Shown here in pieces: positions 15,471 to 60,865 of a stretch of DNA of 64,000 nt. Location of the stretch: the NCBI GenBank assembly GCA_021234155.1, contig JAJEKV010000011.1, positions 11,881,255-11,945,254 of the forward strand, read 5' to 3'. Numbering within the stretch: position 1 is the stretch's first letter; every line of letters starts with the position of its first letter. The stretch is from Isoetes taiwanensis. Lineage: Eukaryota; Streptophyta; Lycopodiopsida; Isoetales; Isoetaceae. Below the pieces are notes generated by a model that worked only from the letters and a program-made list of their open reading frames with translations, was not told the DNA's origin and ran no database searches. The position numbers were made by a program, and so were the translations under genes.

Positions 15471-15487
15471 TCAATATTTTATTTTTG

Positions 15488-15865: not shown

Positions 15866-16170
15866 AATATTAGGGCCTGAGCATAGTCTTAATTCTTTTC
15901 ACTTGTGCAGTTATCTCTGCCATGAAAATTATGGTTTTTAATTCCTCTAAAACATAAGTGGGCATTATGTGCGGTTCATGTGTTTGATATTAGAATGGAT
16001 TCAATTGACAATAAATTTAATGTTTATGTTTATCACCAACCTGTAGAAGCAAAAGAAGGATTAACACAGGATAGTGAGAACAGCCAGATATTTTGCATAG
16101 GTTCTTGAGAAACGTAATGATCCTCTAAAAAACTCCAATATCAAATACAAATACACCTGAAGTTTGTTCC
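15866..16170. repeat. Direct duplication between the PPR genes, copy 2
   Basis: Partner of 15166-15470, offset about 700 bp, same orientation. It probably marks an old tandem duplication of the 3' flank of a PPR gene. Confidence 0.65.
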
Positions 16171-16356
16171 ATAAAAAGACTTGTTCTAACCAACTTTGCA
16201 GCACTGGAACCAGCTTAATTGCATACTGGAGATAGTTATGTCTCATTTATATTAAAATTGGGAACTCTATCCTTGCAAGCATATTTGGCTCATCGAGACC
16301 TTCAATTTTTCAGTAATATGTATTTAACATATGGAATTGACAAGCATATAAGTTGT

Positions 16357-18642: not shown

Positions 18643-19101
18643 AGTTTTATTTTTAAAAGGTCCATATATCCACTACTGGATAGACCAATTTTCTGAGGCT
18701 AAAACAGCTCACATGAAACACATTTTTATTTTTTTACATATTCCAAAAACAATTAATAAGTATTCTTTTAAATTAACAATTAGTTTGACCTACTCTGTTT
18801 CTGAGCAGGGCCCCTGATTACCTCGATCGAACAATGGTAGACAATTACAGAGGAGCTTGGAACATAGCATAAAATAGCAATATTAGTTATGAAGTAGCAG
18901 GCAAAACAATGTATAATCATCTGCAAACTAAAAACAAGCTGCCAGAATAAAACCTCAGAATCCTAACGCTTCTCTCGAATTAGAGTCCTAAGCTCTATAA
19001 TTACACAACAAAATATGCTACCTGCCTAATTGCAGAGAAGATAAATAAAATATGCAAATCGGTGGTGTAAAAATACACCATTAAAAAGAAAGTTTGAAAG
19101 A

Positions 19102-19521
<420 letters not shown>

Positions 19522-23101: not shown

Positions 23102-23122
23102 GAAAGCGCGACCCTTAGGTGT

Positions 23123-23659
23123 ATGATGTGGAATATACATGGATTGACAGAGAATAAGATCCTGAGCAATGAGCACCTGTTTGCTATCAGTGACATTCTA
23201 TGTTTAATGGAAACATGGGAATATGATACACACATATTACTAAACATACCAGGTTTTAGCGTCTTAGATTCAGTATGGAATGAGAAAGGCAATAGTACAC
23301 GCAGTTGGGGTGGAATCGCTTGCTATGCCAAACATGAGATCGCCAAAAATGTGCAGATTGTGAGAAAAAGCATGCATAATCAGTTTATGTGGCTTGAAAT
23401 AAAAGGAGATGTGCCTATCCACATTGCAATTGTGTACTTTGCACCCTTGCAGCCTTATCCCTCACAAATATACTCTCATCCTGAGCTAAGTTCAACTGAT
23501 CCTTTCATGCACATCTACAGGGATATCCTGGAGTTTCAAAACAAAGGAGCGGTATATATTCTAGGTGATCTGAATGGCCGGATGGGAGAGGATCAAGCAA
23601 TAATGTATTCTGATACTGATAATAGTCTATGGCTGGAGGAAACTAATGATGCATTCTAG
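23123..23659 (+). pseudogene. LINE ORF2 N-terminus: AP-like endonuclease, truncated
   Basis: 178 codons starting MMWNIHGLTENK. It contains the endonuclease landmarks MWNIHGL, LMETWE (metal-binding E), a WGGIACYAK block, FMWLEIKG and GDLNGRMG (catalytic D and N). Translation ends at a TAG only 12 bases before the gypsy target site. The C-terminal endonuclease motifs (the final D-H pair) are absent on both sides of the insertion, so roughly 100 codons were deleted or decayed. This enzyme nicks target DNA to prime reverse transcription. Confidence 0.8.
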
Positions 23660-23670: not shown

Positions 23671-23675
23671 TTTGG
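23671..23675. repeat. Gypsy element target-site duplication, left
   Basis: TTTGG directly before the LTR start TGTGACG; repeated at 40598-40602 after the other LTR. Confidence 0.9.
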
Positions 23676-23814
23676 TGTGACGTCCCCTACTCCTTATACG
23701 ATGCACACATCGTATTCAAAGGAGGAGCATTCCCCCTGGCAGCTACACTGACAGGGGCCATCCACCTGCTCCACTCCCAGTGGAATGAGCCAGCAAGGGA
23801 AGAATGGATGTGTC
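23676..23814 (-). repeat. Downstream (3') LTR, distal piece
   Basis: Begins TGTGACGTCCCC and matches 38984-39122 of the other LTR closely. Includes an 8-bp-armed hairpin (ATACGATG ... CATCGTAT). The last nine bases, GGATGTGTC, are the duplicated target of the nested Mutator-like element. Confidence 0.92.
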
Positions 23815-24154
23815 CCGGGGGGTTCACCCTTTTTTTCCGTACAAAACATGTGCGTGGGCGATGAAGGGGTTTTTTTGCCATTTTGATGTACGTATACCTA
23901 AGAAGCGTCTTACGTTTTGGCGCCGGACCTGCTGTATTTCCACGGTTTCAGGAGCGCTTTCGCTGCAGGTGGAGGGACTTAGAAATACGTTAAGGGGGCT
24001 TAGATGCTTTGATCAATGCCGGACAGATACGTTTAAGGGTGCTTGCATTTCCGGAGTTATGTTTTGAAATTTTTTTTTCCCTGTATAAAACTTGTTTTTA
24101 TAGTTTCTTATGAACGGAGCTTTATTTTCCATGCTACCGATTTCGCATAGTAGC

Positions 24155-24283
24155 GATGGCGGCAAAGAGGAGCGAGTCTATGATAAAATATGTTTACAGG
24201 GCTAAAACAAGGGCTTTGTGTTTGGAAAAAGCCATCCAGATGGCTTCAATAAGAATGTGGAGGCTGCCTATATCATCTGTGTG
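24155..24283 (+). CDS. Short ORF near the left end of the Mutator-like element
   Basis: 42 codons from ATG (MAAKRSESMIKYVYRAK...) to TGA, 340 bp inside the left end and upstream of the aconitase exons. The start context and basic composition are reasonable, but there is no family match. It could be a captured first exon or chance. Confidence 0.2.
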
Positions 24284-24878
24284 ATTACATCGGCATTATG
24301 AGAGTGGCGGCGGTTTGTTCATGGTCTAAACCCTTGTTTTCACTATGTACTCCATGACAGGCATGGAAAACGGCATAAACCAGGTTTGGAATCATATTCA
24401 TGTTCGTGGTTGTATGGTTCTATTTCAAGCTCTTACAGGTTATTTTGGCACTGAAAGGCTCCAATCTGTTGCAATATCTCTGATTTGATTATTACCCTGT
24501 TATGTACCATTCCATTCAGGCTGGTATTAGTCTCTGGGTCTTACATTTTAAACATAATGAGCAAGCATATATTTCAGGTTTCTTTGCCTTTATGTAGAAT
24601 CAAAACTATTTTTCCTGGCTTTATTCCTGGTTGTTATAGTCTAGCTCCCCTTCTCTGGTACTAAATTGCAAAGAGTTTATTTGCTGCTAAGAAACCTTAC
24701 ATGGTCTCTGATAGCTCTTGCATCTTTATCACTGCATTCTTAGTACTTTAATAGGCTCTTGCAGCCACATGCTTATATTATATGGAAGCTACTGGGCTGA
24801 TTTTGGGCCATTGTTCTATAAGGCTACGCGTTATCTTCTCTTTGACTATTTTTTCTTACTTGCATGGCTGCACCCTAG

Positions 24879-26182
24879 CTTTAACACTGATGGCCTTCTG
24901 TATCCAGATAGTGTTGTTGGAACCGACTCTCATACTAGTATGATAGATGGCCTTGAAGTAGCAGGATGGGGAGTTGAATTAATCGAAGCAGAAGCAGCTA
25001 TGTTAGGGCAGGTAAGAAATTATTGCAGGCATGGCCATTGTTGAATGGCAATTGTTGATCCAATTTCTTCAATGAAGATTGATTCCATTTTCATAGTTTG
25101 TTTTGGCTTTCTTGTTGTAGCCCATGAGTATGGTTATTCCTGAAGTAGTGAGCTTCAAGTTGTATGGCAAGCTTCAATCTGGTGTAACAGCTACAGATCT
25201 TTTCCTTACTGTAACCCAAATTTTGAGGAAGCATGGAGTCGTTGAAAAATTTGTAGAGTTTTATGGTGCGTAGAGATTACCTTGTAAAGAGAATTTTTTA
25301 TTTGGCGTTCTTCTATTATTAGTGCTGAAGACTGGAATTTTTGTTGGATGCAGGTGATGGAATGAGTCAGTTGTCTTTAGGTGATCGGGCTACAATTGCA
25401 AGTATGTCACCCGAATATGGTGCCACAATGGGCTTTTTCCCTGTTGACCATGTGACTCTACAATATCTACGAATGACAGGCCGGGATGAGGAGAAGGTTA
25501 GTCTTTGATACAGTTGAAACTTTCATTCAAGCTTGGTGTTTCAAGAAATCTGAGCATTTCATAATCCATTCCATTTAGAAGCCTTGTGTCCTATCTGGGT
25601 ACAAATGTGTCTGTACCTGCTAATTGTTTGACCTACCAGGTTGCCACCATAGAATCTTACCTCCGTGCAAACAATATGTTTGTAGATTATGCGCAGGTAC
25701 TCTGTTTTGTTGTAATTCCATCCTCATGTATTGGAGACTGAGTAGAAAATCCTAATCTTAGCCTCAAACAACAAAATCCTATTCTTCAAACTTGGAGCTT
25801 GACCTAACAAAAGTGGAGCCATGCATTGCAGGACCAAAACTGTATGTCTATTATTTGATATCCTATAGAGCAAAGAGTTGATGATCGAAAGATAGGATTA
25901 TTTACAATCATTTATGCGTGGCGTTTCAGGCCCCATGATCGTGTGACATTGAGAGAAATAAAGAGCGATTGGCAAGCTTGTTTGGACAATAAAGTTGGGT
26001 TTAAGGTAGTTTCAAGATGCTAAATTCATTTGATTGACAGTTCAGTTGCTCCATGGTTCTTAATCATCTTTGATGCTCCCACATGTTCAGGGCTTTGCTG
26101 TTCCAAAGCAAGAGCAAAGCAAAGTTGTTAAGTTCAGTTTTGAAGGTAAAGAAGCAGAACTAATGCATAATACAGCTTCAAT
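24879..26182 (+). pseudogene. Aconitate hydratase gene fragment with introns retained
   Basis: Exons that read as aconitase: 24879-25011 ([20 protein letters not shown]), 25121-25265 ([14 protein letters not shown] to VEFYG), 25354-25496 ([21 protein letters not shown]), 25640-25696 (ESYLRANNMFVDYAQ), about 25787-25840 (LELDLTKVEPCIAGPK), 25930-26005 ([17 protein letters not shown]) and from 26091 (GFAVPKQEQSKVVKFSFEG). Most junctions keep GT/AG and phase. Aconitase isomerises citrate to isocitrate in the TCA and glyoxylate cycles. Only a middle segment of the roughly 900-residue enzyme is present, without the [4Fe-4S] cysteine motifs. In [18 protein letters not shown], conserved glycines are changed. 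It is a captured fragment, not a working gene. Confidence 0.92.
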
Positions 26183-27389
26183 GGTCAGCATCTATATCTT
26201 TAGGACTATATGTGTTCCTATGCATCTATGTCTGTGAACATGGGTTCCGCTATATTATATTTATATCTCTTTTTAACTAGCTATAGTATGGGGCTATAGT
26301 ATGAACAGATGGTGATGTGAATACTTAAATACTCTGTCATCCACTTTAAAATGTATTGTACATGAACTTACAATGTTGTATAGGAAAATTGGCATTAATG
26401 CTTCAACGTGTTACCAAACTGTCATCATATTTTATTACATTGGTTGCTCATTGTACTATCATAAGAATATGCCTTAGCAGTTCTTAACAAGGGATAAGCT
26501 TGGTTTGGAATTAAAGATTTAATTCCCATTAGGCTTTTCTTTGTTAGTAAGAGCTTTTAGGCTAATAATCATAGTTAGTCTGTATAATGCTAGGATTGGT
26601 GGCTTGGGCCTGGGTCACGCCAAGATAGACAAATTCTCAAGCTCTAACGAGTGTTAGTGTTTGGAGTAAGTATTTCTGCTAGATTAGATCCTAGTGGGAA
26701 TTTAGCCAATAATAAACTCTATAAACCCTATTAAGCCTAAGAAATTCATTCATACTTAAATTCGGGATTTCCCAAGTGTGTTGGTTGGTGTTCCCTTTTT
26801 TTTTTTTTTGAGTGACCACCATTGAACTAAGAGGGACCATTGAACCATTGAACCCTAAACCTTGAGTTAAACTATTGCCTTGAATTTTAAGCATGTTTGG
26901 GTCAAGCATAGAATACTTAGAAGTTAATTGGGAGTAGATAATATAAAAACATTGATCTTATGGAACATATGCCTATAGTTCTTAGCCTTCATGTCAAGGA
27001 GCTCTACAGTCCTCTAGTCCTATGCAACCACTCTACAGGCATAAAAGAAATCCCAGATGTGCAATTTGACTGAAATCAAGTTCAACTAATATGAATTTAG
27101 CATTGGTATGCAACCAACCTTGTGGAGCTTGCAAAATTTGGAGGTTGAATGTAAATGTAAGGTAGAGGGTAGGCTACATTAGTGATATCCTGACGTAAAA
27201 ATACGGTTAAGGGTAGGGTCAATGGGGATTGGACTAGGCGTAAAAGTATGGAATAAGGTATTATTTTTCACAAAAACCAGACTGTATACATAGGGGTTTC
27301 TATGGGGGAGAGCCGTATACGGAGGGGTTTCTCCCGACCCCTGGAACGCACATGCCATATCCCCTTTACATAGAGGTGAACCCCCCGGG

Positions 27390-28881
27390 GGATGTGTCAT
27401 TCACCCGTCTTCCATCGGGTCGACCTATCTGCGGAAGCGTGAATAAACAAACATGAGCACAAACTAACAGTATATAAATACAATCACCTCGAAGGGTGAT
27501 CACATCATCATCATCATCATCATCATCACATATACAACATCATCAGTATGATAAACATCAACAAGGGAATCCTACCCTGGGCTTCGACTCAAGGGGGTTC
27601 GACTGACAGCTTGGCCTCCATAAGTCATTGCAGACAGAATTCATGGCAATGGATTTGGCTGGCATAAGAACATAGCTTAGGATAGTCCACTCCATCCGCC
27701 CCTCCCGTGCACACTTTGCAGAGTAGGTTGAAAAGTATTGGGACTTGACCGTAGCCTGCCGGGTGAATAGCCAGAGGGGCTACTACTACTGGGTTGCATC
27801 TCCCCAGCCCCGATGAGGCAGGAAGGGAGTTGCCTCCCCTCCAGAGGTATCCATGCCCATCACAGGCGGCTAGAGGGCCACTGCCCTTATTCGACTTGAA
27901 CTCAATGGAGGGTGACGTATCACCCCACGAGTGTCGAGCTCATGCCTTGCCCACACGCAGTGACAAGCCATTAAGCCTAGCCCGCATAGACCCCCGGTAG
28001 GCCTTACTCATCAGAGGGGTCAGTCTGTGTTGGGACAAGTTCCTCCTTGTCATCCGGTCTAGTCCCGCCACCCACAACCAGGCGGGCTCTTGTGCACGGG
28101 CCGCAAGTAATTGGGAACTAGTAGGGTATCTAAGATCATCTGCTACACAGCTTTAGGCCTCTATCCCCCTTCCCAATACATGGAGGTCACAGAATGAAAT
28201 ACCAACATCATCACAGAACTTGAAATAAAGAATATCATCTAATCTATTTACCTAAACAACAGAGTTAGGTTCCTTAGTTAGGGCTTATGATCTCGGGATC
28301 TATAAGGCCTCTATGGCTGAATGAATATGCTAAACTACCTCACTGCTTAGCCCAAAGACGGCTTTGCACAACAGAATGACTAGATACCTGGTCCTTGACC
28401 TGCTCTGGATCCTCGGAATGCATCCATGCTCCTGATCTTGCTGAAGATGGCTGCTACTCGATAATCTGTTGTGCAAATCCGGCTTTACAGAGCCGAACAA
28501 TGCGAAATGGGGTCTTGACTTGGCCGAAATGGCTCAAGAGGACCTTAAATGCGAAATGGGAAAGGAGCTCTATGAAAACCCTAAAATGCAAGGAAAGAAA
28601 AGGGTTTAGGGTTTAAGGAGGAACCCTTAAATAGAAACCCTTAGGGTTAGGTTAAAACATTGGCAAATGGGGTTTAGCCATTTGGCAATGGGGTCCATGG
28701 GGTTATTAATTGTGTATGTTTATTTAACATGCACAATATTCAAAGTTGCCTCCTAGGTGCAACCCTTGCCCCCTAGGTGCAACTTACTACAACCGTTAAG
28801 TACATGTCATCTGTGACATGTACGGGTGACGTGGTAGTATAATATACGTATTCAGGGCGTATATTATGCTGGAACGTCACA
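27390..28881 (-). repeat. Downstream (3') LTR, main piece
   Basis: Starts with the second copy of GGATGTGTC and runs to ...AACGTCACA at 28881, matching 39114-40597. In the last 140 bp the two LTRs differ at five positions, all transitions. It contains a CAT microsatellite longer than in the other LTR, a doubled (C)CCCTAGGTGCAAC motif, a perfect 10-bp-armed inverted repeat (GTACATGTCA ... TGACATGTAC, about 28799-28822), and a TATA-like TATTTAAG on the minus strand near 28630. Confidence 0.93.
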
Positions 28882-28894
28882 TTCTTCCCACCTT
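28882..28894 (-). promoter_or_regulatory. Polypurine tract
   Basis: On the minus strand AAGGTGGGAAGAA directly abuts the downstream LTR. This is the expected plus-strand primer of a retrotransposon. Confidence 0.85.
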
Positions 28895-29542
28895 GACTTG
28901 ATGCTGTCCTCAGCATCACGCGTCTCCCCACCTTGGAAGGCTGCATATCCTGCAATCACACTTAATATACATATAATGCAATTACTTCCCGGTAGTATGT
29001 CAATTAATCATAATTATCCTTGCATAAAATAGTACTATGGTGAGAGGCTCTTTCGTCCTCTACTTCGTCATCTATTATTCACAAAAATTTTACGTTTCAA
29101 TTATGTTTCAAGATTTTCTACTTAATGCTCCTTATCGCCTCCTCACAACACATTACGGCAAAATTATGTGTTGCGAGTCTTCGTGGTGCCATCTTCCTGC
29201 CGCTCAAATTCCTTATTGGCCTGCAGGTCCAACACCACGTTAGTATGCATTTAATTATTATAAGGGTTGGTTGTAAGGGAACCACCCATTAAATACAATT
29301 ACGTGGATGCAAGGCATATCTCCCGGCATAGGAAGATTATGTTTCTTCCATCGTGGCCGTGGAGACAGCGCCCTATCATGCCTATATGCCGCTCATGCCT
29401 ACACCTTTAGTTGCCTTTGGCGTGGAGGATAGTGTCCTTCCCGTATTTGGGCGTGAAGGATAGGGTCCTCCCCATAATAAGCATTGACTAAAGGTGCTTT
29501 CCTATCTATGCATTCCTGGATGACCTCCTTTCTCTCGAGGTC

Positions 29543-29569
29543 GTCTACTTCCGTGGGACGGAAGTAGAC
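29543..29569 (-). other. Perfect 12-bp-armed hairpin just after gag-pol
   Basis: GTCTACTTCCGT, a GGG loop, and its exact complement. It starts three bases beyond the polyprotein's presumed stop (29573-29575). Confidence 0.7.
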
Positions 29570-29572
29570 TTT

Positions 29573-32500
29573 TTAATCTACCTTCCACTCACCTAAGGTG
29601 TCGGTGTCGACTACTTCGGTGACGAGCCGACCCTTGCATTGCTCCATGAATTCGGGGTACTGCTTCTCCAAATCTGATTGTAGTACCTACGTAGCGTCTT
29701 CCACTGGTAAGTGCTTCCACTTCACAAGGTATTGGAGAAATTTTGACCTTCTTGTCTTCTTATAAGCCCTGTCAAGAAGGACTTCACGGACGATTTCAAG
29801 ATGGTCGTCCGTCATTTCCAGGAACTCTGATGTCTCTAATATTTCCTCTGGATTAGGAATGTGCTTCTTTAGGAGACTTACGTGGAAAACGTTATGGATT
29901 TTTAGATGTGCTGGCAGGTCCAATTTGTAGGATTGTGTACATACTTTTTTGGTTATCCCGAAAGGTCCCGCCCATCTTGGAGCAAGCTTCTTGCAATTGC
30001 CGATGCGGAGCTTGGCCTGCTTCACCTTGATCTTCAACCATACATTGTCTCCCAACTGAAATTCCCTTATTGTTTTATGCTTGTTGGCGATGCTTTTCTG
30101 CCTACTTCTTGCTGCTAGGAACCTCTTACCTCCTCGACCAACTCTTGCATCTCCAAAAGCATTTGTTGGGAGACTTCTACCTTGGACACAGGATTGTGCC
30201 AAGTATCCGGGGTAAGACACTGGTACCCATAGTTAATCATAAAAGGACTCATCTGCGATGACTCCTGCTTGGTACTGTTGTATGCGAACTCTACTAAGTG
30301 GATGAAATTATCCCACCTAGATTGCTTGTTCCATACATAGCTTCTTAACATATCTTCGATGATCCTATTTGTCCTCTCCGTCTGACCATCTGTTTGCGGA
30401 TGATATGCCGTGCTCATCGAAAGCTTCGTTTGGATGGTGGTAAATAGGTCCTGCCAAAAGGCACTCATGAATTTGGAGTCCCTATCTGAAATTATCTCTC
30501 TCGGCATGCCGTGGAGTCTGAAGATCTCCTTAACAAATAGAACGGCCGTGTCTAATGCCGTATCTGTTGTCCTGCACGGCACAAAGTGTGCCATCTTTGA
30601 CAACTTATCTACTACCACCATCAGGCTTTGCCCCTTGCTGTTCTTGGGAGTCCTGTAATAAAGTCCATACTTATTACCTCCCACTTAGCGTTTGGCACAG
30701 GCAATGGTTCCTATGCACCTGGAATTCGAAGTTGTTCTGCCTTTGTCTGCTGGCATATCTGGCACTCTCGAATATACCTTGCTATCTGCTTCTTCATGCC
30801 GGGCCAGAAGTAACTGCTTCTAATTTTGAAGTATGTCTTCATAAACCCTGCATGCCCTGCTATGGGACTATTGTGTGTATCATTTCGGATTAGCTTCCTA
30901 ACTTGTGAAGATTCTGGTACACACAATTTGTTTTTATGGTATAGCAAGTTCCCCTCCTTCTTGTAGTGCCTGAACATCTCCCTTTCCTTGTCGGTCCTGG
31001 CCTCCTTGCAAAGACTTGCCCAAACTTCTTTAAAGTCGGGATCTGTTGGCAACGTTTCTTCGATCTTCTTGCCAAACTCGCTTACAGGTGTTGATATGGC
31101 ATTACAATGTATTCTCGTTGCCAAAGGCTTCTTAGAAAGGGCGTCCGCAACCACATTGAGCTTCCCTGGCTTATAAATTATCTCGAAGTCATATTCTTCA
31201 AGGAATTCCATCCATCTCCTTTGCCTCAAATTGAGGAGTGGTTGTGTAAATATATATTGAAGGCTTTGATGATCCGTATCTAGCTGGAATCTTCTTCCCA
31301 ATAGATAATGCCTCCAAATTTTTAAAGCTCTTACTATAGCCAAGAGCTTCTGATCATGCGTTGGGTAGCGCTGCTCTGCGTCATTCAACTTCTTCGAACC
31401 ATAGGCCACTACTCTTTCCTCTTGCATGAGGACTGCACATGTTGCTATCCTGCTAGCGTCTGTCGCCACAAGCTTGTCTTTGGTCGGATCTGGCAAGACC
31501 AACACTGGCGCGGTTGTCAATGCTTCCTTCAATGTGTCAAATGCTTTCTGGGCCTTACTTTGCCAATGAGTTGTCCAATTCTTTATCTTCCCGGCTTTTG
31601 TGAGATCTGTCAATGGCGCTGCTACCTTGACAAAGTTCTTGACAAATCTTCTATAATAGCCTGCTAGGCCGAGGAAGCTCCTTACTTCATGCGTATTCTT
31701 CGGTGCCGGCCAATCAATCACGGCTTCGATCTTCGCAGGATCCGTGGAAATACCTTCTGTTGAGATCACATGCTCTAGATACTCCACTCTTTCCGTTGCG
31801 AAGTGGCACTTGGATAACTTCGCAAAGAGTTGATGCCTTCTTAGCTTTTCAAGCACCTTCCTCAATTGTTGGACATGCTCTTCCATAGATTTGCTATAAA
31901 CTAGGATGTCGTCGAAGAAGACTATAATGAAAGAATCTAGAAACTCACGAAAGACGTCGTTCATAAGCCTCATGAAAGTTGCTGGGGCATTGGACAATCC
32001 TAAGGGCATTACTGTGAACTCATAGTGTCCGTATCTTGTCCTGAACGTTGTCTTGTGGATGTCTTCTTATTTGATTCTTATCTGATGGCAGCCCGATCTC
32101 AAGTCTATCTTGGAGAAGATCTTCGCTCCCTGCAACTGATCCATGAGATCGTCTGACCTAGGCAAGGCATACTTATTCTTAATGGTGTGCTTATTTAACT
32201 GGCGGTAATCGATGCACATCCTAAGGCTCCCATCCTTCTTCTTCACAAAAAGAATAGACGCTCCAAAAGGAGAGACACTAGGTCTTATGAACCCTAGGTC
32301 TAGCAATTCTTGCAGCTGCTTCTTTAGCTCCGTCAACTCTTCGGTTGACATTCTATAAGGTGCCTTGCTTGTTGGCTTCATCCCTGGCTCAAGTGCTATT
32401 TCACACTCGACTCCTCTATAGGGCGAAAGCTGCTTAATCTCATCAGGAAACAAGTCATGAAATTCCTTCACCAGCTTTGCTATCGGCTTAGGGAGCTTGC

Positions 32501-34183
32501 TCAATGCCTTGGCCTCCTTCTCTTCCTCTGTCTCTTGGTCGTCGAGCTCAAGTTTAAGGAGATAGGCCACTTGCTCCTTCCTTATACACTTAAGTAATTT
32601 TTCACTCGACATGCATTGCATAATTGGTCTTACTTCTTTACCTGTTATCTCGATGACCTTGCCTTCTGGCGTTGTTAAGGTCACCTTGCGCTTCCCACAA
32701 TCAATGACTGCTCCTGCTGGTCCAAGGTATTCCATCCCTATTATCAAATCATATTTGCCGATGTTCATCACCTCGGCTCCCAATGCTACATTGATTCCTG
32801 GCAAATCTACGTTGAAGTTGATTCTTTTTCCTGCTGTATGCCTGATTGCTCCACTAGCCAACACAACCGGTCTCGGCTTGGACTTCAAGGGCTTAAGCTT
32901 CAATGTATGTACCATCCTTGGCGAGGCAAAGTTATGGGTGCTCCCTGTATCTATCAAGACTATGAAGGATTTCTCCTTGGCTTTCCCAGTTGTGGAGATT
33001 ACTTGGTACTGACTTTCTGCATTCTCCGTATCAATGGCTGCAAAGATATGGCACTCACCATGAATATAGTCTCTGGCGTCGTCCTCGTCCACGTCGGTGG
33101 GTGTCTCCCATCCCATCTCTGCCAACGCTGCATTCATCACCAAGGGGCAATTGCTAGTCCTGTGCCCTGGCTGGAAGCATCTGAAACATAGCTGCTTTTC
33201 TATGCATTCCTGCTTCTTCTCTTTGGGAATAGATTGCAAAAACTGTTTCACTGCCTTTGAATAGTTGGGACCTGCTCCTTGCTCCTTGAAGCTCACCTGT
33301 TTCTTTTCCTGCTTGCCCCCACTTACATTGCCCTGTTTCCCATAGTTGGAGTTGTATTGCGGCCTGCTAGCTGCTGGACTTGCTGCCCTTAGGCTACAGC
33401 CTCCTGTGCCATTTCCCTTATCCTGGAAATATTGTTGCCTTCGAGCATGCTCTTGCGGTCCAGTTCCTTGCAAACTTACTGCCTTGGACTCTGCTTCTGA
33501 CATGGTCTTGGGGTTTATTGCCCTTACAAGCTTGCAGATCTCTTCATTCAACCCTTTGATATAACCCTCCACCGCGTGCCTTTCACTCAACTTTGGCACA
33601 TAAAGCCTTAGTCTCATGAATTCCTCTGTGTACTTCTGAACTGATTTGTTGCCTTGCTGCAACCTGTAGAACTGCTGCATCATGTTGCACTTATGCTCTC
33701 TTGGCACATAATAGCGCTTGAATGCCTTAGCAAACTTTTTGAACTTGTAACTGTCTCTGCTCAGTCCATGTGCTTTGGCATACCCCTTCCACCATATCAT
33801 GGCTGCTCCCTTCAAGTTTGTTGTAGCCACCCTGCCTTTGTCCTTATCCTTCATGCTATAAGCATTGCCATACTCACTCATCTCGTCGAGCCAAGCTTCT
33901 GCTTCCATTCCGGATCTGCTGTCTCCTGAGAACTGTTCTAGCTTTCTGGCTTTTCACACATTGCTAAGCGCGGAGTCAACCTTCTTCTGGTAATCAGATT
34001 GTGACCTGCCCCTGTCACAGTTTGGATCCTCCCGGCGGTCCCGTCTCTCCTCCTCCTGCTCTTATGATCTGGAGTCCAAGTCTGAGCTAGAGTCGGAGGA
34101 CCCCGAACTAGGAGATCTTCTCCTTCGGCTTCTCTTCCTTTGTTGCACTGTTCGGCCAGCTGGTGTTTCATGCAATGGCACAT
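29573..34183 (-). pseudogene. Gypsy gag-pol polyprotein with chromodomain-like tail, broken
   Basis: Gag core [16 protein letters not shown], then the CCHC knuckle [14 protein letters not shown]. Protease [13 protein letters not shown] with [16 protein letters not shown] and FFDDILVYS. RNase H with LVATDAS and LDTDHQSL. Integrase HHCC zinc region (H..H..CQIC), catalytic VVVDKLSKMAHF, ISDRDSKF and HPQTDGQTERTNR (D,D,E). A C-terminal chromodomain-like segment (IVREVLLDRAY..KFLQYLVKWKHLP) follows the GPF..KLDLP linker. Breaks: the first gag frame (34183-33938) ends near 33940, TAA at about 32067, TAG at 30711, a frameshift near 30650, another near 30200, and TAG at 29687 where the chromodomain tryptophan is expected. 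The frame otherwise continues to TAA at 29573. Confidence 0.93.
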
Positions 34184-34755
34184 TCTGATCTTGTCCTCCT
34201 ACTGCTGTTGCTCCTGCTAGCAATGCCCTTATTTCATGAATATCGGATCTGATGCGGGATAGCTCCTCTTCCGGAGTTGCTGCATCAAACTCTTGGTACA
34301 GATTTCTTGGCTGGAAGCGCCTTGGTGGAGTACGCTCTTGGGCATGATGTCCTTGTTGTCTCTGTTCATCAACATTTCTAGGTACTCTACTGCATGCACA
34401 TTAGATTGAACCCTGATCATTAGTTCCTTATTGGTTTGTTTGAAGATGGCACAAAATTATATGACAAGGAGACATAATTAAGGTCATGATTTATATTCAT
34501 AGATATATTATTGCTTTTACATTCAAAATATCAGAATATTTTAAAACATTTCTAATTTTCATTCCTGGAATTTCTTCAGATAGTCGGGGTGGTCCTCCAG
34601 AAATTTCTTCACTTGGGCCGTGCCTATTGTTCTCCCTAGGTTCCCGAGGATGTTTGTGGCCGTGCCTCCTTGGAGTGCTGTCACTAAATCCTCGATCCTC
34701 CTATCCGAAGTATATCTTTATCAGCGCCAAACACCAACCCGCCGTGCGTAGGGGA

Positions 34756-36069
34756 TTAACGAAAGTCAAAGATACTTAATGCTATCGTTCTCTTGATAAG
34801 GACTACATGATCGATGTTTGGGGCCAATCGAGCATGATTTCCAAATCCTGAGAGGGCGATAAGCATAAAGACCCCTTCTTCGCCCCCTGGGCTGAATTGG
34901 CAGTGTATCACCGCTATTCTTCCGTCTAAGAGCAATGGGAGGTAGTACCTAAGGGCTTTATCATGCCCTGCTTCCTCAGCAGCTGTCGAGGTTGCCCTAT
35001 GTCTTCCCGTGTACTCATCAACCTGCACGCCTCTGGTTCTTTGAAGTCCTGGTGCACTAATTTCCTCAGGTTGATGCTGCCTGCATGCTGCCCTGGTGCC
35101 GTTGCCGAGGAGCTAGGTAAGAGTGCTAATGTCGACTTACCCTTGATGCCCATGCGCTCTTGGATTGCCAGGAACTCTTCTTCTGACGGCAATTCCCTCC
35201 CGTCCATCATTTGTCTGATGCCTGTGTAAGCTTCGATGTCTGATGACGTCTCGCCGGTGTATGTCCTGGCTTCCCTTATGCTGATGGGGAAGTCTTGAGT
35301 TTCTCGATCGATGAAGTCGTCGAGATCTGGTTGTTGCCGTAGAAGATGCAGAATTTCATCCACTCTGAAACCCCTGTCTCTGCATTCTGGAAGATTTTTA
35401 ATGTCATGGAGGCTTAAGTATGCTTCTCCTCCTATGACACTGGGGTCAAGCTTGTTATTCCTTGCCCCAAGTGGTGGGGCTCTTCTTGTTGCTCTGAGCC
35501 CTTCTTCGAAGCTTTGGAGCTGCTGCTCTGCTTGCTGCCTCTCATGTTCTAAGTCGATGTCTTCTGAATCCGACCCGTGTTTCTCCTCCTCTCCCTCCTG
35601 TTCATACTCGAGGCGCATCTGCTCCTCCTCTGCTGCTGCCATGGCCATGGGTTCAACTTCTAAGGGTTGCACTGAGGGTTCTCCTATCTGGGTTTGGCCT
35701 CTAAGAGATAGGAAAATAGCTATGGCTGCTGTATAGGAAAAGTACCTTCTCCTATTGACAGAAATAGACATGTAATTGGGTAGACGAACTGCTTTGTTCT
35801 CTAGATACTTGTCTATGTTTGGGATATCCTGCAGAGCTGACTTAAGGGCCATGCTGGGGGCAAAATATCCTATGCAAGGTGGGAGTTCTACCAAGGACGG
35901 TCCTATCTTGGCATGGGAACACAGACATAATGTCTTGGTAAAAGGGGGTGGCATTGATGGTGGCTTCCACATCAAGCTCCTTCTGGAAGACGTCGAAGAC
36001 GGAGTTGATGTCAGCCTCGGCCACATGGGTTGTGGCGTTGTACCATCGCCTGAATGCAGTGGTTGCCAT
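34756..36069 (-). pseudogene. Extra retrotransposon ORF of unknown function
   Basis: Starts MATTAFRRWYNATTHVAEAD at 36069, shifts frame near 35930 and again near 34990, and ends about 34756; roughly 435 codons in all. The middle is acidic (EEEQMRLEYEQEGEEEKHGSDSED) with a glutamine/glutamate coiled-coil look. The C-terminal third (KALRYYLPLLLDGRIAVIHCQFSPG) is better ordered. It has no CCHC knuckle and no enzyme motif. It sits between the H3-like gene and gag on the same strand. It might be an additional structural protein or a captured host gene. No family recognised. Confidence 0.6.
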
Positions 36070-36361
36070 GGTCTATGAGCAGCTGGGGATGTCAAATAGA
36101 TGGGGAAGCACCTTAGGGGCCTGAAAAATCGGCTTGGAGTGAGGAGCAAGGGTGTAGGATGCAAATGATACCTATGGTCCTATTTATAGGCAAAACCCTA
36201 ATTTTGGGAAAATTCAAAGTTGGAAAATATCTATGATTCTAAGGTCTAGGTATACAATTCACAGGCTAACTATGCTAAAGAATGCATTCTAAGGGCCCTA
36301 TAGCAATAAATTTCATCTACTTTGGGGAAAGTATGGACAAGTTAGGGCAATTTTAATGTGA

Positions 36362-36434
36362 CCACTCACATAGTGCACCCGGGTCGAATCGGTTTGCAAA
36401 CCAAATTGGTCTGGGCGCACTCTGTGAGGGGTGG
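36362..36434. repeat. Conserved hairpin motif, copy 1
   Basis: Reads CCACTCAC...GTGAGGGGTGG with complementary ends and an inner near-palindrome around GGTTTGCAAACC. First of five copies flanking the H3-like gene. Confidence 0.85.
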
Positions 36435-36566
36435 GGTCCTGTTTGGGTCAAGGATGATGCCAAACATGAAAACTAAGGGTAGAATCTTGCATATCTCGTC
36501 GAGATAAGTCGGATTGAGCCTTTACTTGCCTCATTTGGAAAAGTTTTGGCCTAGTTTTGGGGTCGA

Positions 36567-36639
36567 CCACTCACACAGTGCGCCAGGGTCAGATCGGTTT
36601 GCAAACCGAATGGGTCTGGGCGCACTCTGTGAGGGGTGG
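36567..36639. repeat. Conserved hairpin motif, copy 2
   Basis: Starts CCACTCACACAGTGCGCC and ends GGCGCACTCTGTGAGGGG plus TGG; inner TCGGTTTGCAAACCGA is a perfect palindrome. About 205 bp from copy 1. Confidence 0.85.
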
Positions 36640-36770
36640 GACTCCATTTGAGTTAGGGTTGGCCAATTTCTACAAAATAGGGGTCAAATCCTACTAATTA
36701 AGGTGAGCTGAGTCGAATGGCATACTTACTTTCTGCATTTGGACAAGATTTGGCATCAAACCATGCTCGA

Positions 36771-36841
36771 CCACTCACACAGTGCGCCAGGGTCGATTCG
36801 GTTTGCAACGAATTGGTGTGGGCGCACTCTATGAGGGGTGG
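36771..36841. repeat. Conserved hairpin motif, copy 3
   Basis: Same outer arms; the inner palindrome is damaged (GGTTTGCAACG). About 204 bp from copy 2, 140 bp from the 3' end of the H3-like gene. Confidence 0.85.
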
Positions 36842-36979
36842 GGCCAAAAACACTTGGTTTTGCTTCAAATTTATTAATTCCAAGTACATAACTCAGTAAC
36901 TCATCCTACTTACACCTGATTCAACACATTAATCATCCAAATTACAACTTTCTATTAACAAAATTTATTTACAACAGTC

Positions 36980-38282
36980 TCAATATGGTTCCTTCTTTAT
37001 GTATTGGGCTAGCCTTATATCTTTTGGCATAGAAGTTACTCTTTTTGCATGCATAGCACATGCAACAGAGTCTTCGAAGTGTCTGACCACGTGCTGCTCG
37101 GCTGCCTCCTGTAATGCCAGCAACATATCATCCGTGACTCGCTTGGACTTGTCGAATTCTTGTAAAATCTCTCGTGTCAGCCTCGCGAAGGGAGCTCTGG
37201 GGATGAGAAGTCCGTAGCTCTGCTGAAAATGTCGGATCTCCCTAGCAGCTCTGGAAAACTTGGAGTTCGCGCTTCTCTTCTTGGGTTTCTTTGGTGGAGC
37301 AGGTCTCTCGGGTGGCGGCTTCAGAGTGTTCTTCTTAGTCGGCTGGCCTCCTTCGACAAACGTGACCTTGTGCTCTTCATAATACTTAGAGTATTCTTTG
37401 TACATTTTCATGTACGAAGTGTACTCTTTTAGGCTCTTCCTATACTCAAGGTCCTGCTTGAGTATATAAGACTCCCTCTGTGGCTTCGGCTTCTTCGTAC
37501 TGTCGCTGGGGTGCTTCAGCGACGGCCACCTAGGGTATGGGGGTGCATTTGCCACTACGTCCTCCTCCTCCCGTGCTGTGTTGGAGGGTCCCAAGCCCTC
37601 GGCTGGGTCGGGCATCCCAACTCCCTCATCTGACTCAGTGTCAAATGAGGATGGAGGCCTCTCCGGGTCCGGCTCCTGAATAGTGACTCCTTTAGCGAGA
37701 GTCGTCTTCGTTTTTCGCTTCGTGCCCTTTGGCAACGCAGGAGCTTTTCCTTTTGCTGCCTTCAACTTCTCGCGCTCCTCTCGTCGCCTCTTCCTTTCCT
37801 CCCTCTTCTGTTTCTTCTCTTCCTTCTTCTTGCGCCATTCCTCCTTCTCCCTACGGCGCTCTTTCTTCGACTTCTTCTGCACTCCATCCTCCTGCTCCCG
37901 CTTCCTTTTCTTCTCCTTCTTGTCTTCCTTGTCCGTGTCATCGAAGAGCTCCCTTTCGAGCTCCCTCTACAGTAACTCTGCTTCTTCTTCTGCTGTGAGT
38001 TCTCCTGCTCCCTCCTCAAGATCATGGGGCCGCTCCTCCTCCTGGTGGTCAGGGGTCTCCTTCTCGTGCTCAGGGGCCTCCTCCTGGTGGTCAGGCGTCT
38101 CCTTCTCGTGCTCAGGGGCCTCCTCCACGTGTGTATGCAGGTTAGGTTGGACCTCTGTTCTTTGATCTTGCTTTCGGCTTTCTCTCACGAAACTCTCGGG
38201 CCTTCTGATGAGCTGCTTTCTCTTGGGCGCTGACATATCCAGGGGGCACTACCTTGCGGGCGGTCTGTTTGGTGCGGGCCAT
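36980..38282 (-). pseudogene. Histone H3-like gene inside the retrotransposon
   Basis: About 432 codons from an ATG at 38282. The first ten residues are exactly those of H3 ([10 protein letters not shown]). Next, after a frame change in a C-run near 38240, comes an APKRKQL segment resembling H3 KAPRKQL. An acidic region with two perfect 14-residue repeats (EEAPEHEKETPDHQ) follows, then an in-frame TAG (37967), a very basic Lys/Arg/Glu coiled coil, a Pro/Lys linker, and a full H3 fold (about 36983-37258). The fold runs from REIRHFQQS through PFARLTREILQEF and LALQEAAE to CAMHAKRVTSMPKDIRLA. Roughly half of the fold positions match canonical H3. Loop 1 has canonical length, unlike most CenH3s. 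Position between PBS and gag, on the element's strand, shows it is element cargo. Confidence 0.92.
38036..38127 (-). repeat. 42-bp coding tandem repeat in the H3-like gene
   Basis: Two nearly identical 42-bp units encoding EEAPEHEKETPDHQ twice, in the acidic linker. Confidence 0.85.
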
Positions 38283-38484
38283 GTCTTTGTTTGAAGAATT
38301 CTGGATCGTTCTCTGGGACGAGATGTTCTCCGAAGGCGCTGGGAACAAATGAGGAACCCTAATTTTCTATTTATAGGTTGGGGAAATTTAGGGTTTGGAC
38401 CTGCAATTCCATATGGGGCCAATCTAGAAGGTATTAGTGAAGATCTGAGGGGTACTTTAGGTTTATTTAGCCAAAAAGCATCCA

Positions 38485-38555
38485 CCACTCACACAGTGCG
38501 TCAGGATCAATTCGGATTGCAAATGGATTTGGCCTGGGCGCATTCTGTGAGGGGT
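38485..38555. repeat. Conserved hairpin motif, copy 4
   Basis: CCACTCACACAGTGCG... to GTGAGGGGT, upstream of the H3-like start codon. The right flank (CACCTCTTTTTGG) is shared with copy 5. Confidence 0.8.
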
Positions 38556-38698
38556 CACCTCTTTTTGGGTCCAATTTTCAATTTACAAGGGGTTTCTTAG
38601 TGTTATAATATGCAAAACTAACTAGAATCAAGGAGATAAGCTGAATGGCACTATTAGTTTAGCTAAATTATACATCTAACCAGGTCAATATGTGTCCA

Positions 38699-38769
38699 CC
38701 ACTCACATAGTGCGCCAGGGTCAAATCGGATTACAAACCGAATGGGTCTGGGCGCACTCTGTGAGGGGT
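38699..38769. repeat. Conserved hairpin motif, copy 5
   Basis: About 214 bp from copy 4, between it and the primer-binding site. Confidence 0.8.
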
Positions 38770-38970
38770 CACCTCTTTTTGGCCATTTTAGGTTGGGTGA
38801 CTGCTAAAATTTATTACTAACTTAGCATTAACCTATTCACTATACTATGAATTGGAAATTTTTTTCCAATTTTCAAGGTTTCTGCTTGGGTGGTTGTTGC
38901 CCAAGGCTTGAATCTACTGTTAGTCCTATGGGAAAATGGTCAGTGCTCGATCCTGGTCTGCCAAGATCAT

Positions 38971-38982
38971 GCTCTGATACCA
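38971..38982 (-). promoter_or_regulatory. Primer-binding site, initiator Met tRNA
   Basis: On the minus strand TGGTATCAGAGC starts one base inside the upstream LTR. It is complementary to the 3' end of plant initiator-Met tRNA and fixes the element's orientation. Confidence 0.95.
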
Positions 38983-38983
38983 C

Positions 38984-40597
38984 TGTGATGTCCCCTACTC
39001 CTTATACGATGCACACATCGTATTCGAAAGAGGAGCATTCCCCCTGGCAGCTACACTGACAGGGGCCATCCACCTGACTCCACTCCCAGTAGAATGAGCC
39101 AGTAAGGGAAGAATGGATGTGTCATTCACCCGTCTTCCATCAGGTCGACCTATCTGCGGAAGCGTGAATAAACAAACATGAGCACAAACTAACAGTATAT
39201 AAATACAATCACCTCGAAGGGTGATCACATCATCATCATCATCACATATACAACATCATCAGTATGATAAACATCAACAAGGGAATCCTACCCTGGGCTC
39301 CGACTCAAGGGGGTTCGACTGACAGCTTGGCCTCCAGAAGTCATTGCAGACATAATTCATGGCAATGGATTTGGCTGGCATAAGAACATAGCTTAGGCTA
39401 GTCCACTCCATCCGCCCCTCCCGTGCACACTTTGCAGAGTAGGTTGAAAAGTATTGGGACCTGACCATAGCATGCCGGGTGAATAGCCAGAGGGGCTACT
39501 ACTACTGGGATGCATCTCCCTAGCCCCGATGAGGCAGGAAGGGAGTTGCCTCCCCTCCAGAGATATCCATGCCCATCACAGGCGGCTAGAGGGCCACTGC
39601 CCTTATTCGACTTGAACTCAATGGAGGGTGACGCATCACCCCACGAGTGTCGAGCTCATGCCTTGCCCACACGCAGTGACAAGCCATTAAGCCTAGCCCG
39701 CATAGACCCCCGATAGGCCTTACTCACCAGATGGGTCAGTCTGTGTTGGGACAAGTTCCTCCTTGTCATCCGGTCTAGTCCCGCCACCCACAACCAGGCG
39801 GGCTCCTGTGCACGGGCCGCAAGTAATTGGAAACTAGTAGGGTATCTAAGATCGTCTGCTACACAGCTTTAGGCCTCTACCCCCCTTTCCAATACATGGA
39901 GGTCACAGAATGAAATACAAACATCATCACAGAACTTGAAATAAAGAATATCATCTAATCTATCTACCTAAACAACAGAGTTAAGTTCCTTAGTTAGGGC
40001 TTATGATCTCGGGATCTATAAGGCCTCTATGGCTGAATGAATATGCTAAACTACCTCACTGCTTAGCCCAAAGACGGCTTTGCACAACAGAATGACTAGA
40101 CACCTGGTCCTTGACCTGCTCCGGATCCTCGAAATGCATCCATGCTCCTGATCTTGCTGAAGATGGTTGCTACTCGATAATCTGTTGTGCAAATCCGGCT
40201 TTGCAGAGCCGAACAATGCAAAATGGGGTCTTGACTTGGCCGAAATGGCTCAAGAGAACCCTAAATGCGAAATGGGAAAGGAGCTCTATGAAAACCCTAA
40301 AATGCAAGGAAAGAAAAGGGTTTAGAGTTTAAGGGGGAACCCTTAAATAGAAACCCTTAGGGTTAGGTTAAAACATTGGCAAATGGGGTTTAGCCATTTG
40401 GCAATGGGGTCCATGGGGTTATTAATTGTGTATGTTTATTTAACATGCATAATATTCAAAGTTGCCCCCTAGGTGCAACCCTTGCCCCCTAGGTGCAACT
40501 TACTACAACCGTTAAGTACATGTCATCCGTGACATGTACGGGTGATGTGGCAGTATAATATACGTATTCAGGGCATATATTATGCTGGAACGTCACA
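38984..40597 (-). repeat. Upstream (5') LTR, 1614 bp
   Basis: TGTGATGTCC ... AACGTCACA, intact. Termini form an extended inverted repeat around TGTGACGT, which contains a TGACGT (bZIP-type) core. It preserves the empty site of the nested Mutator-like element. Short frames inside are duplicated in the other LTR and are not genes. Confidence 0.95.
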
Positions 40598-40602
40598 TTT
40601 GG
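40598..40602. repeat. Gypsy element target-site duplication, right
   Basis: TTTGG, identical to 23671-23675. Confidence 0.9.
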
Positions 40603-42812
40603 CCCATGCAAGAAGTGGCTTGATGAAGAGTGCAGGCTTGCTAAAAAACATTACAAGATTGCAGCTAACAGGGAAGAGGCTCTCAAATCTTATAAGCGGT
40701 TAGTAAGGCAAAAGAAGCATTTATGGCTCAAATCACAAAATGTATGAGATGTTTAAGGAGGTCAGGTCTAAATCCTCCAAGAAATTTTGGCAACGAGTCA
40801 AGATATCTCCTCCACAAATGGGAGATTTTTCATCGAGTGACTTGTTGGAGAACGTTGAAGACTTGTATAACATCCCAAACTGCCCACAAATGCCTTTGAT
40901 TATAGCTGATATGCAGCCCATGTTGGAGGTTTCAGACATCATAGAGGCCCTCCAATTAATGCATAATGGTAAGGCAAATGATCTGCATGGTTTGGTAGCA
41001 GAATTCTTTAAATGGGGAGGCTCAGTAATGCATGAAAAGCTTGCTGAATTATGTAACAAAGTGCTGCTCAAAACTTGGTGCGTAAGTAGAGTTGTTCCGA
41101 TTCATAAATCGGGAGACAAAAACAATGTTAAAAACTACTGCACAATTCTAGTGAGCAGTTTTTTGGCTAAACTCTTTGCTTCTATGCTTGAACATAAATT
41201 AAGTGCTTGGTTGGACACCAATAAAGCTAGAGCACATTGTCAAGCGGGCTTTAGGCCTAAGCATTCTACCACGGATCACCTGGTGACTCTGAGGGATATT
41301 ATGGAAGGAGGCAAAGGCCCCGGAAATGAGAGGTGTCTAGCCTTTATTGATCTGACTAAAGCTTTTGACCGTGTTAACCGGAAAAAGCTAGCTGATAGAT
41401 TGGAACACATTGGGGTCCCTACGAATGGCAGTTGCTTGTCTATATGAAAAAGTTTTGGTTCAACTCTCTTTTCCCTCATCTGAACAAGTCATCAGCACCG
41501 TTGGAGTAAAACAGGGTTGTCCTTGCTCTCCAACCTTGTTTGGGATTTACATTGACGAATTGGAAATTTGGCTTTGTCAAGGAGATGTTGGGGCTGATCT
41601 TCAAGGGTATGTAATCCACCTCCTCTTGTATGCAGATGATATAGTTCTAGTTTCAAGGAGTCCAACAGGCTTGCAGAACCTTCTGGATAAGTTATATGCA
41701 TTTTGTATATCTAGAGACATGAGGATTAATCACGCCAAATCAAAAGTCATGATCATTGGGTCTCGGGCTGCTGTTAAACCATTCATTGTAGATGGGTGTG
41801 AGATTGAAACTGTTACACAGTACAAATACCTTAGAATTGAAGTAACCAATGATTATAAGTGGAGAATAGCTGTGGAGAAGTGGGTTACAGGTGGTTTCAG
41901 AGCTTTGTATGCCATGCTAAACCTCTGTAGACAAGCTAACATATGGCATTGGAAGTTTCGAAAGCTTTTTTAATGCACAAGTTAGGACAATTGCCCTTTA
42001 TGGCTGCCAAATATGGGGACCGGGGCTGTCACAAAAGATGTGGAAACAGGTTGAACGGGTGCAAAAGCGTTTTCTACTAGAAGAGCTTGGAGTAAAAATC
42101 CAAACACCGTATTCTATGATGCTAGCTGAAGTAGGTATGCTCCCCTTTGAAGCAGAGGCACTTATATGGACAATAAATTATGTGAACAGGACGAAGGAAC
42201 TTGAAGCAGAGCGGTTTCCCTTACTTGTGTTGAAAGAAACATCACAAAAGGGGGTGGTATCACCAGGTACTTCAGTGGGTTGCTCGATGGGGCATATCAT
42301 CACATAATTGGCTAGGTACGCCTTCCGAAGTAAGTGATTTGATACAAAAACAAGTCTTGGAAGAGTTGTGGAGGATTAGGCCAAGTACTGATGTGAAAAA
42401 ACAGTTCTATAAAAATGAAATAAACAAGTTGGAGCCTTATGAGGTGCAAGGATACATGCACTCAGAGATTAGCAAAAATTTGAGGAAACAAATATCCAAA
42501 CTTCGGCTCAGTTCTCACCACCTTAAGATTGAGGTCGGAAGATGGAAAGGAATTCCAAGGGAGAGCCAATTATGTCCGTGTTGTATTTCTTTGCCACAAG
42601 TGGAGGCGGAACAACATGCTTTCTTGGAATGCCTGGTATATGAGCATATCCGGGATAGATTTGGTATTGGGAACATCACACTTGCAGAGCTATTATGCAT
42701 GCCACCGCCCGCTTTGGCCAGGTACATACAAGCGATCATTAAAGAGAGGGAAGACACTATGGAATTATATCATAATATGAGCATTTTGGAAGCAATTGGG
42801 GAGTTTGACTAA
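40603..42812 (+). pseudogene. LINE ORF2 C-terminal part: reverse transcriptase and C-terminal domain, broken
   Basis: Continues the LINE after the gypsy insertion. Linker CKKWLDEECRLAKKHYK, then RT blocks: VVPIHKSGDKNNVKNYC, AGFRPKHSTTDHL, CLAFIDLTKAFDRVNR (catalytic D), GVKQGCPCSPTLFGIYIDEL, and LLYADDIVLVS (catalytic DD). After the thumb comes YGCQIWGPGLS and a C-terminal region with LRLSSHHLKIEVGRWKGIPRE followed by a C-x2-C...H...C metal-binding-like cluster. Frame changes near 40745, 41440, 41970 and 42310 kill it. The enzyme performed target-primed reverse transcription. Confidence 0.88.
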
Positions 42813-56076: not shown

Positions 56077-56149
56077 TGACTTGTTGAAGAAGTTTACAAA
56101 GGCATATCATGACTTTCAAGCTGTAATTTGATCTTCTGGCTTCAAGTTA

Positions 56150-60825: not shown

Positions 60826-60865
<40 letters not shown>

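Follow-up and report, generated by a model that had tools for sequence, protein, structure and literature searches.

A histone H3-like gene carried between primer-binding site and gag by chromoviruses of Isoetes taiwanensis

The window analysed here, a 64-kb stretch of the Isoetes taiwanensis genome, contains on its minus strand (23676-40597) a chromovirus, i.e. a Ty3/gypsy element with a chromodomain. Both LTRs, the TSD, the PBS and the PPT, which the initial annotation had described as visible, were all read directly; features are on the minus strand unless stated otherwise. The 5′ LTR (38984..40597) comprises 1614 bp with ends TG...CA, and the 3′ LTR is divided by a 3.6-kb insertion into one part at 27390..28881 and a second at 23676..23814, on the far side of the nested insertion (23815-27389). 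The LTR pair is 97% alike, with 44 differences over 1624 aligned sites (K2P 0.028). A TSD of 5 bp, TTTGG, lies on both sides of the element (40598..40602 on the 5′ side, 23671..23675 on the 3′ side). The PBS letters TGGTATCAGAGC follow directly after the 5′ LTR (PBS TGGTATCAGAGCATGATC, 38965..38982) and are, we presume, complementary to initiator tRNA-Met, and the PPT AAGGTGGGAAGAA, a purine tract at 28882..28894, directly precedes the 3′ LTR. The nested insertion has inverted ends (GGGGTTCACC / GGTGAACCCC) and looks DNA-transposon-like by eye. The element itself is inserted into a LINE, the endonuclease and RT parts of which were recognised by eye on its flanks (23102-23659 and 40707-42812, plus strand). 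Elsewhere in the window, large ORFs at 12531-18672 appear pentatricopeptide-repeat-like by eye, which fits a land plant rich in such genes, ORFs at 4047-5489 and 54439-56106 (both minus) resemble hAT transposases by eye, and long degenerate tandem arrays at 59441-61850 are pyrimidine-rich on the plus strand, as judged from translations.

Along the element, the PBS is followed by an H3-like gene, ORF2 and then gag-pol. The gag-PR-RT-RH-IN-chromodomain region (29260..34400, ends approximate) was assigned from Pfam matches and reading frames, and is broken in the window copy by stops and one frame shift. The succession of Pfam domains in pol, RVP_2, RVT_1, RT_RNaseH, H2C2 and rve, is the chromovirus order PR-RT-RH-IN. 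At the C-terminus of the integrase, Chromo was matched with E=7.9e-5 and 22.9 bits against a Pfam cut-off of 25.1; a stop interrupts the domain in the window copy, and the reading continues in the L033 copy. By eye, and with our own placing of the positions, a W45-like residue is kept and the Y24- and Y48-like ones are not. The integrase chromodomain of the window element appears to be of group II, with the cage aromatics missing; the accessible part of PMC3350952 describes group II as a type without such aromatics. The gag-PR-RT region gave no match at 1e-20 in the protein database, no relative of the element was found in viral contigs or plasmids, and Rfam returned nothing at gathering scores.

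The H3-like gene spans 36980..38282. An ATG at 38282 opens ten residues (38282-38253) identical to the H3 tail (10/10 against the host tail), encoded by codons of which 8 of the 9 after the ATG differ synonymously from those of host H3. A charged linker follows, and then an H3 fold (37249-36980) matched by Pfam Histone with E=4.7e-25. The fold is 56% identical to canonical H3 over 87 columns that align without a gap, so that loop 1 has the canonical H3 length, as had been proposed. AlphaFold2 applied to a piece of 211 aa predicted helices at 119-133, 140-154, 162-191 and 197-206, which corresponds to the alpha-N/alpha-1/alpha-2/alpha-3 layout (pLDDT about 60-93 by block in the helices, mean 70.9, pTM 0.36). 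A Foldseek search with this model (E <= 0.001) found 308 solved chains, and all of the 50 listed are nucleosome or histone octamer entries. Pfam, predicted structure and Foldseek concur in an H3-type histone fold with an alpha-N helix, and the earlier claim of an H3 tail start joined to a C-terminal H3 fold is borne out by the exact tail, the Pfam match and the predicted four-helix layout. The same claim had placed both parts in a single ORF. Tail and fold are indeed both there, but in the window copy the frame of the tail stays open for 46 codons and that of linker and fold carries one TAG, i.e. the gene is broken by one frame shift and one TAG. Tail, linker and fold are assigned to one protein because the path from ATG through tail and linker to fold is uninterrupted in 7 of 30 loci elsewhere in the genome. 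Two AATAAA motifs lie within 110 nt past the H3 stop. In the protein database, 120 proteins matched the H3 C-terminus; for the 119 with coverage given, the match extends over 21-38% of the query, that is the fold and little more. A chance ORF was rejected because the match to H3 has so low an E-value, the tail is exact and the sequence is conserved from copy to copy; when the 328-codon frame was shuffled 5000 times, it never remained open. A neutral simulation of the fold was weak: the frame remained open in 1666 of 20000 runs, and the substitutions are no more conservative than neutral ones.

The H3-like gene is flanked by hairpin repeats of about 80 nt each, spaced by 204-214 bp and situated upstream of each of two TATA boxes. 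Two tandem repeats lie upstream of the gene (38480..38773; 38694-38773 and 38480-38559, about 214 bp apart), and three lie between it and ORF2 (36357..36843; 36766-36843, 36562-36641 and 36357-36436, about 205 bp apart). The motif CTATAAATAG occurs exactly twice in the 64-kb window, both strands counted: at 38367..38376, 94 nt before the H3-like ATG, and at 36180..36189, 117 nt before the ORF2 ATG, and by eye no ATG intervenes between TATA box and start for either gene in the window copy. The exact motif is present in 24 of 30 loci at the first position and in only 10 of 30 at the second. Folded as RNA, the five window hairpins reach -26.6 to -39.1 kcal/mol (z -2.4 to -6.3). A 28-pair structure has standard pairs in 86% of cells, compared with 30-44% in slid versions, over 134 distinct sequences of 136 hairpins from the fetched loci, a comparison favoured by the derivation of the structure from one of the sequences. 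Double changes were counted at 8 pairs of the structure and at 8-15 pairs of slid controls, which is no excess, and the arms hardly vary among the fetched loci; since the arms are near-invariant and double changes stand at control level, RNA function and DNA palindrome are not separated. ORF2 (34571..36072), a protein without known family, is broken in the window copy and uninterrupted, with 506 aa, in the L032 copy. It found no match in the protein database, and the 506-aa version gave nothing significant against Pfam, PHROGs and PDB.

As to the source of the fold, the initial annotation had named ordinary H3 and excluded CenH3. The alignment with H3.3 scored 223 (49/87 identities, ungapped), compared with 209 for rice CENH3 (50/85, one gap) and 180 for A. 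thaliana CENH3, both CENH3 sequences being provisional references; the longer loop 1 typical of CENH3 is absent. At the same time, the identity of 50/85 to this rice sequence is accompanied by P63, A68, S107 and an HFQ...LLIP stretch, which we take to be plant CENH3-like. The fold may thus have been taken from CENH3, and the element may target or mimic centromeric chromatin. Against such an origin speak the H3.3 score, the ungapped loop of H3 length, the ten-residue H3 start of the tail and the near-canonical H3 folds inspected in a second lineage (see below). We consider a CENH3 source quite unlikely, and the sequence comparison leans towards ordinary H3, with the CENH3-like residues as a qualification to the earlier statement.

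An intact canonical H3 gene of 136 aa is located in the window at 19105-19512 (minus), on the same strand as the element and about 4.2 kb past its 3′ LTR. It carries E77 where the PDB H3.3 reference has D77, and E77 is also found in 29 of 30 element copies. A recent copying of this neighbour into the element was rejected: the two genes differ with pS 0.93 and pN 0.33. As the host branch contributes synonymous changes too, this pair alone is no proof of selection on the branch of the element. The nearness of the host gene is plausibly due to chance, because the genome holds 15 matches to it at 99-100% identity (hand count) and many H3-bearing elements.

A search of the genome (1,658,258,908 bases, 1110 contigs) with the 211 aa linker/fold query returned at least 150 scored matches, all with E below 1e-80 and 67-100% identity, some over part of the query; the 10,862 first-look candidates are not a copy number. 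By hand count, 100 of the 150 matches listed lack an internal stop. The best 30 of the 150 were inspected as loci. All 30 contain the hairpins upstream and downstream as well as the 5′ UTR region, 27 the ORF2 start and 28 the H3-tail region, with the ATG in 26 and one copy frame-shifted there. An uninterrupted gene of 394-420 aa from ATG through fold occurs in seven (L012, L015, L017, L021, L022, L029 and L030). Longer stretches of the L017 and L021 copies (L031 and L032, respectively) show the same order of 5′ LTR, leader, hairpins, H3, hairpins, ORF2 and gag. Of the two, L032 alone contains the exact PBS core, and L033 yielded no 3′ LTR for the L032 copy. A search with the 5′ LTR gave at least 41 matches, its own included, at 85-100% identity (7384 candidates, 40 scored). 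Hand comparison among the matches listed places five of the 41, the window's own included, next to one of the 150 H3 matches, and the L017 copy has two LTR matches on one strand about 20 kb apart. The question raised earlier, whether other copies hold the ORF, is answered by these relatives, which confirm and extend genome-wide the initial description of a gypsy retrotransposon with its own H3-like gene between PBS and gag.

Substitutions among the 30 loci were compared by the Nei-Gojobori method in 435 pairs; 84 of these were set aside, their dS being saturated or too small. Over all columns, dN was below dS in each of the 351 pairs with usable dS. Median dN/dS was 0.077 for the whole alignment; for the fold alone it was 0.055 (298 pairs) and for the linker 0.096 (375 pairs). 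Median dS exceeded 1, which places many pairs near saturation. Pooled over 15 independent pairs, each copy being used once, pN/pS was 0.185. Raw nonsynonymous changes outnumber synonymous ones within the fold in 4 of the 15 pairs (L004/L010 8:1, L007/L020 9:5, L002/L003 11:9, L011/L014 5:4), of which only L004/L010 exceeds 1 by rate, given about 3.7x more nonsynonymous sites; decay of dead copies would yield such an excess. The check proposed earlier, for purifying selection among the copies, thus comes out at dN/dS of about 0.05-0.1, or 0.19 when pooled. A one-off capture is ruled out by these ratios and the at least 150 genome matches. The gene could instead be a passenger, a copy of host H3 hitchhiking with no benefit to the element like the H3 captures of fungal hAT elements, which are thought to drift or are inactivated (accessible parts of PMC3538342 and PMC6710886), and the broken window copy would suit this. 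With dN/dS far below 1 in many copies and two lineages, and with position and partner ORF2 conserved, we regard a passenger as very improbable. Read from sequence, element membership, conserved architecture, uninterrupted copies and purifying selection are established, and the H3-like gene has long been part of a chromovirus lineage and under selection there.

The residues kept are distributed unevenly over the protein. In the fold, C110, A114, K115, R116, V117, M120, K122, D123 and L126 are present in 30/30 copies and R83 in 29/30; together with R69, R72 and T118 they are kept in at least 93% of the copies with the residue. We take the nine invariant positions to be tetramer and L2 residues, with contact roles from nucleosome structures, and by this sequence criterion the fold keeps its H3-H3 and L2 surfaces. 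The window fold retains 24 of 27 positions conserved in other H3-like proteins, compared with 27 of 62 less conserved ones (p=4e-5; the reference being 32 H3-like proteins of our choice from the 120 matches). Non-host states common to 29 or 30 of the 30 copies include P63, R64, K82, V84, T85, D86, D87, K131 and K132, and several DNA contacts of alpha-N and L1 are altered in the window's lineage (R63P, K56Q/R, F84V, S86D). As these contacts are changed, ordinary nucleosome wrapping is doubtful in this lineage. In the tail, each of A1, T3, K4, Q5 and R8 is found in 27 of the 28 copies, encoded by numerous synonymous codons, and the residues of ARTKQTAR are each kept in 24-27. Position 9 is K in 18 copies and I in 9, I9 being followed by T or V; this subgroup has lost the K9 site and kept K4. 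For the first lineage, the conserved tail tip argues for contact with a reader or writer.

A second H3-bearing chromovirus lineage emerged from a genome search with the host H3 (P0121, window 19105-19512). Among the 150 scored matches listed, 135 have 72-89% identity, with frames of up to 567 aa, and the lineage is known from five of these (L034-L038). All five loci contain an uninterrupted gene of 409-421 aa that starts with MA-x-T/I-K and ends in a near-canonical H3 fold, with a different N-terminal domain (TLSIVEIYAMIA...); the H3-like proteins of the two lineages can be aligned in the fold only. The PBS core was found upstream in three of the five loci (L034, L035 and L038); the sequence available for L036 and L037 is too short to include it. 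The gag of L034 and L035 is 50-51% identical to that of the window element, and L034 has integrase and chromodomain, with much of RT and RNase H missing. ORF2 lies at the corresponding place and is distantly homologous to that of the first lineage (26% over 235 residues, pairwise E 8e-10). Across the five whole genes dN/dS is 0.08-0.12; in the comparison of the fold with host H3, pN is 0.10-0.12 and the synonymous sites are saturated. The simplest reading of these sequences is a common ancestor with H3, ORF2 and gag-pol in that order, although the two lineages may also have arisen via two separate captures or via fold replacement. The motif CTATAAATAG was not seen in the 140 nt before the ATG of the five copies; because of this, and because the ORF2 TATA box is exact in 10/30 loci, an internal promoter is not lineage-wide. 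Likewise, a K9-methyl function is not general, since K9 is replaced by I in 9/28 tails and the second lineage keeps only MA-x-T/I-K. With K9 lost in a subgroup and the tail nearly lost in the second lineage, the common denominator is the fold, not the tail. Binding of the element's own K9 by the integrase chromodomain was rejected as a general mechanism on the same loss of K9 and on the absence by eye of cage aromatics; as these appear missing, a link from chromodomain to own tail is unsupported.

Two further roles bear on these data. As a soluble decoy, the protein would titrate H3-tail readers, writers or chaperones and blunt silencing in trans, without chromatin assembly. The retention of the ATG and of ARTKQTAR in the window's lineage, the altered L1 DNA contacts and the long charged linker are all compatible with a decoy. 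However, it would need the tail or chaperone surface alone, whereas the fold has the lowest median dN/dS and keeps K115/R116/T118/K122, and the five second-lineage copies combine a nearly absent tail with a near-canonical fold; a decoy is conceivable, albeit rather unlikely. Alternatively, the fold may package or compact cDNA in the virus-like particle, or dock the intasome on host chromatin. The gene is encoded upstream of gag in the same orientation, its basic linker is rich in K/R and it is conserved across copies, as would be expected for a particle component. It nevertheless stands apart, being fused neither to Gag nor to IN and having a TATA box of its own in the window's lineage, and a histone fold needs an H4 partner that would have to be recruited into particles. 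We judge this role unlikely.

As the best explanation of the whole, we propose that the element encodes an H3 variant that would be assembled on element chromatin and alter its silencing, a reading to which we assign a probability of roughly 45%. The protein of 394-421 aa, comprising an N-terminal region of ~300 residues (charged in the window's lineage) and the C-terminal H3 fold, would be produced, in the window's lineage only, from its own TATA promoter. The fold would pair with host H4, and the variant would be built into nucleosomes, or into sub-nucleosomal particles, both on the element's DNA and around it. Because the L1 loop is altered (in the window's lineage, DD for SS at 86-87) and the N-terminal region is long, the silencing machinery may treat such particles unlike H3, so that element expression would be permitted by anti-silencing in cis or in trans. 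ORF2 is a likely partner of the H3-like protein, and the hairpin repeats may be its promoter-proximal regulatory sites. Somewhat more tentatively, an old plant LTR retrotransposon lineage may build its own chromatin, with a dedicated H3 variant and ORF2 kept through the divergence of gag-pol. The two lineages would then represent two solutions, a canonical fold with a replaced tail in one sublineage, and a kept tail tip with a rewritten L1 DNA contact in the other.

Similar proteins are encoded on public contigs. P0055, a protein of 395 aa from a 2182-base contig (source 'lgn'), has an H3 tail start, a linker of about 290 aa and an H3 fold, and its 25 N-terminal residues are 60% identical to the first lineage (E=0.006). 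Four H3-like groups (P0009/P0020/P0028/P0034/P0073; P0021; P0064; P0074-P0119), one cluster among which has 257 members, likewise show altered tails or long inserts. These four groups are possibly mobile-element borne as well, and together with P0055 they may reflect the same chromatin strategy elsewhere.

Retroelements normally undergo histone-based silencing passively. Were a lineage of them to preserve an H3 of its own under strong purifying selection, this would represent a direct molecular move in the silencing conflict, and the element H3s would provide a natural, long-evolved set of variants with which to ask what H3 surfaces matter in deposition and silencing. The data suggest that elements may build or disguise their own chromatin, and make it a testable question whether a transposon chooses the chromatin state of its own copies.

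Among known systems, the closest are fungal. A hAT DNA transposon of Pyrenophora tritici-repentis carries an H3-like gene, H3L, beside a gene of no known function and in many copies; H3L has insertions in the N-terminal tail, and transcripts were reported (PMC3538342). In contrast to the chromovirus gene, its carrier is a fungal DNA transposon with 26 very similar recent copies, for which the authors suggest drift, and the accessible part of that source describes neither a linker of about 300 residues nor long-term purifying selection. The hAT elements of Pseudocercospora, Cercospora and Sphaerulina likewise captured H3, at high copy number and with an old origin, but according to the accessible part of PMC6710886 these genes are RIP-inactivated, mostly truncated in P. 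fijiensis and without retained function. The window element is an LTR retroelement and not a DNA transposon with TIRs of the fungal hAT type. Single viral histones, i.e. a bracovirus H4 with an extended tail and a xenomavirus H3 (PMC9145170, in part), are alike in that a single histone of host origin is encoded by a parasite and believed to become part of host nucleosomes, and the bracovirus H4 also has an added N-terminal extension. They differ in belonging to animal DNA viruses, and the bracovirus tail gains 38 residues, with no linker of ~300 residues between tail and fold. Plant Ty3/gypsy elements with extra genes (PMC7264820; an orchid 2-ODD domain, PMC9289625) share a conserved gene besides gag-pol, one such gene of maize Grande having its own promoter, yet the most frequent extra genes lie between pol and the 3′ LTR. 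The word histone is absent from the main text of PMC7264820 as accessible and occurs twice in that of PMC9289625, for histone marks and histone demethylation; it is likewise absent from the accessible main text of the Isoetes taiwanensis genome paper (PMC8566536). Plant group II chromoviruses as described in PMC3350952 share the gag-pol order PR-RT-RH-IN with chromodomain and the 5-bp TSD, while the accessible text mentions neither an H3-like gene nor ORF2. ORF2 and the tandem repeats recall, by analogy only, the VANC system. VANC is not known to be a histone. In the VANDAL elements of Arabidopsis, this element protein acts on noncoding tandem repeats and counters silencing (PMC10398659, in part), so that a trans factor paired with fast-diverging noncoding tandem repeats is a candidate parallel; anti-silencing was shown there, whereas it is proposed for the H3 element. 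The earlier statement that no retroelement family encoding an H3 has been described agrees with the searches of openly licensed PMC papers, in which no histone gene in a retroelement was found, and is to be narrowed by the fungal hAT cases. A TE-borne H3 was thus already known, and what is new here is the retroelement carrier, the selection and the conserved gene architecture.
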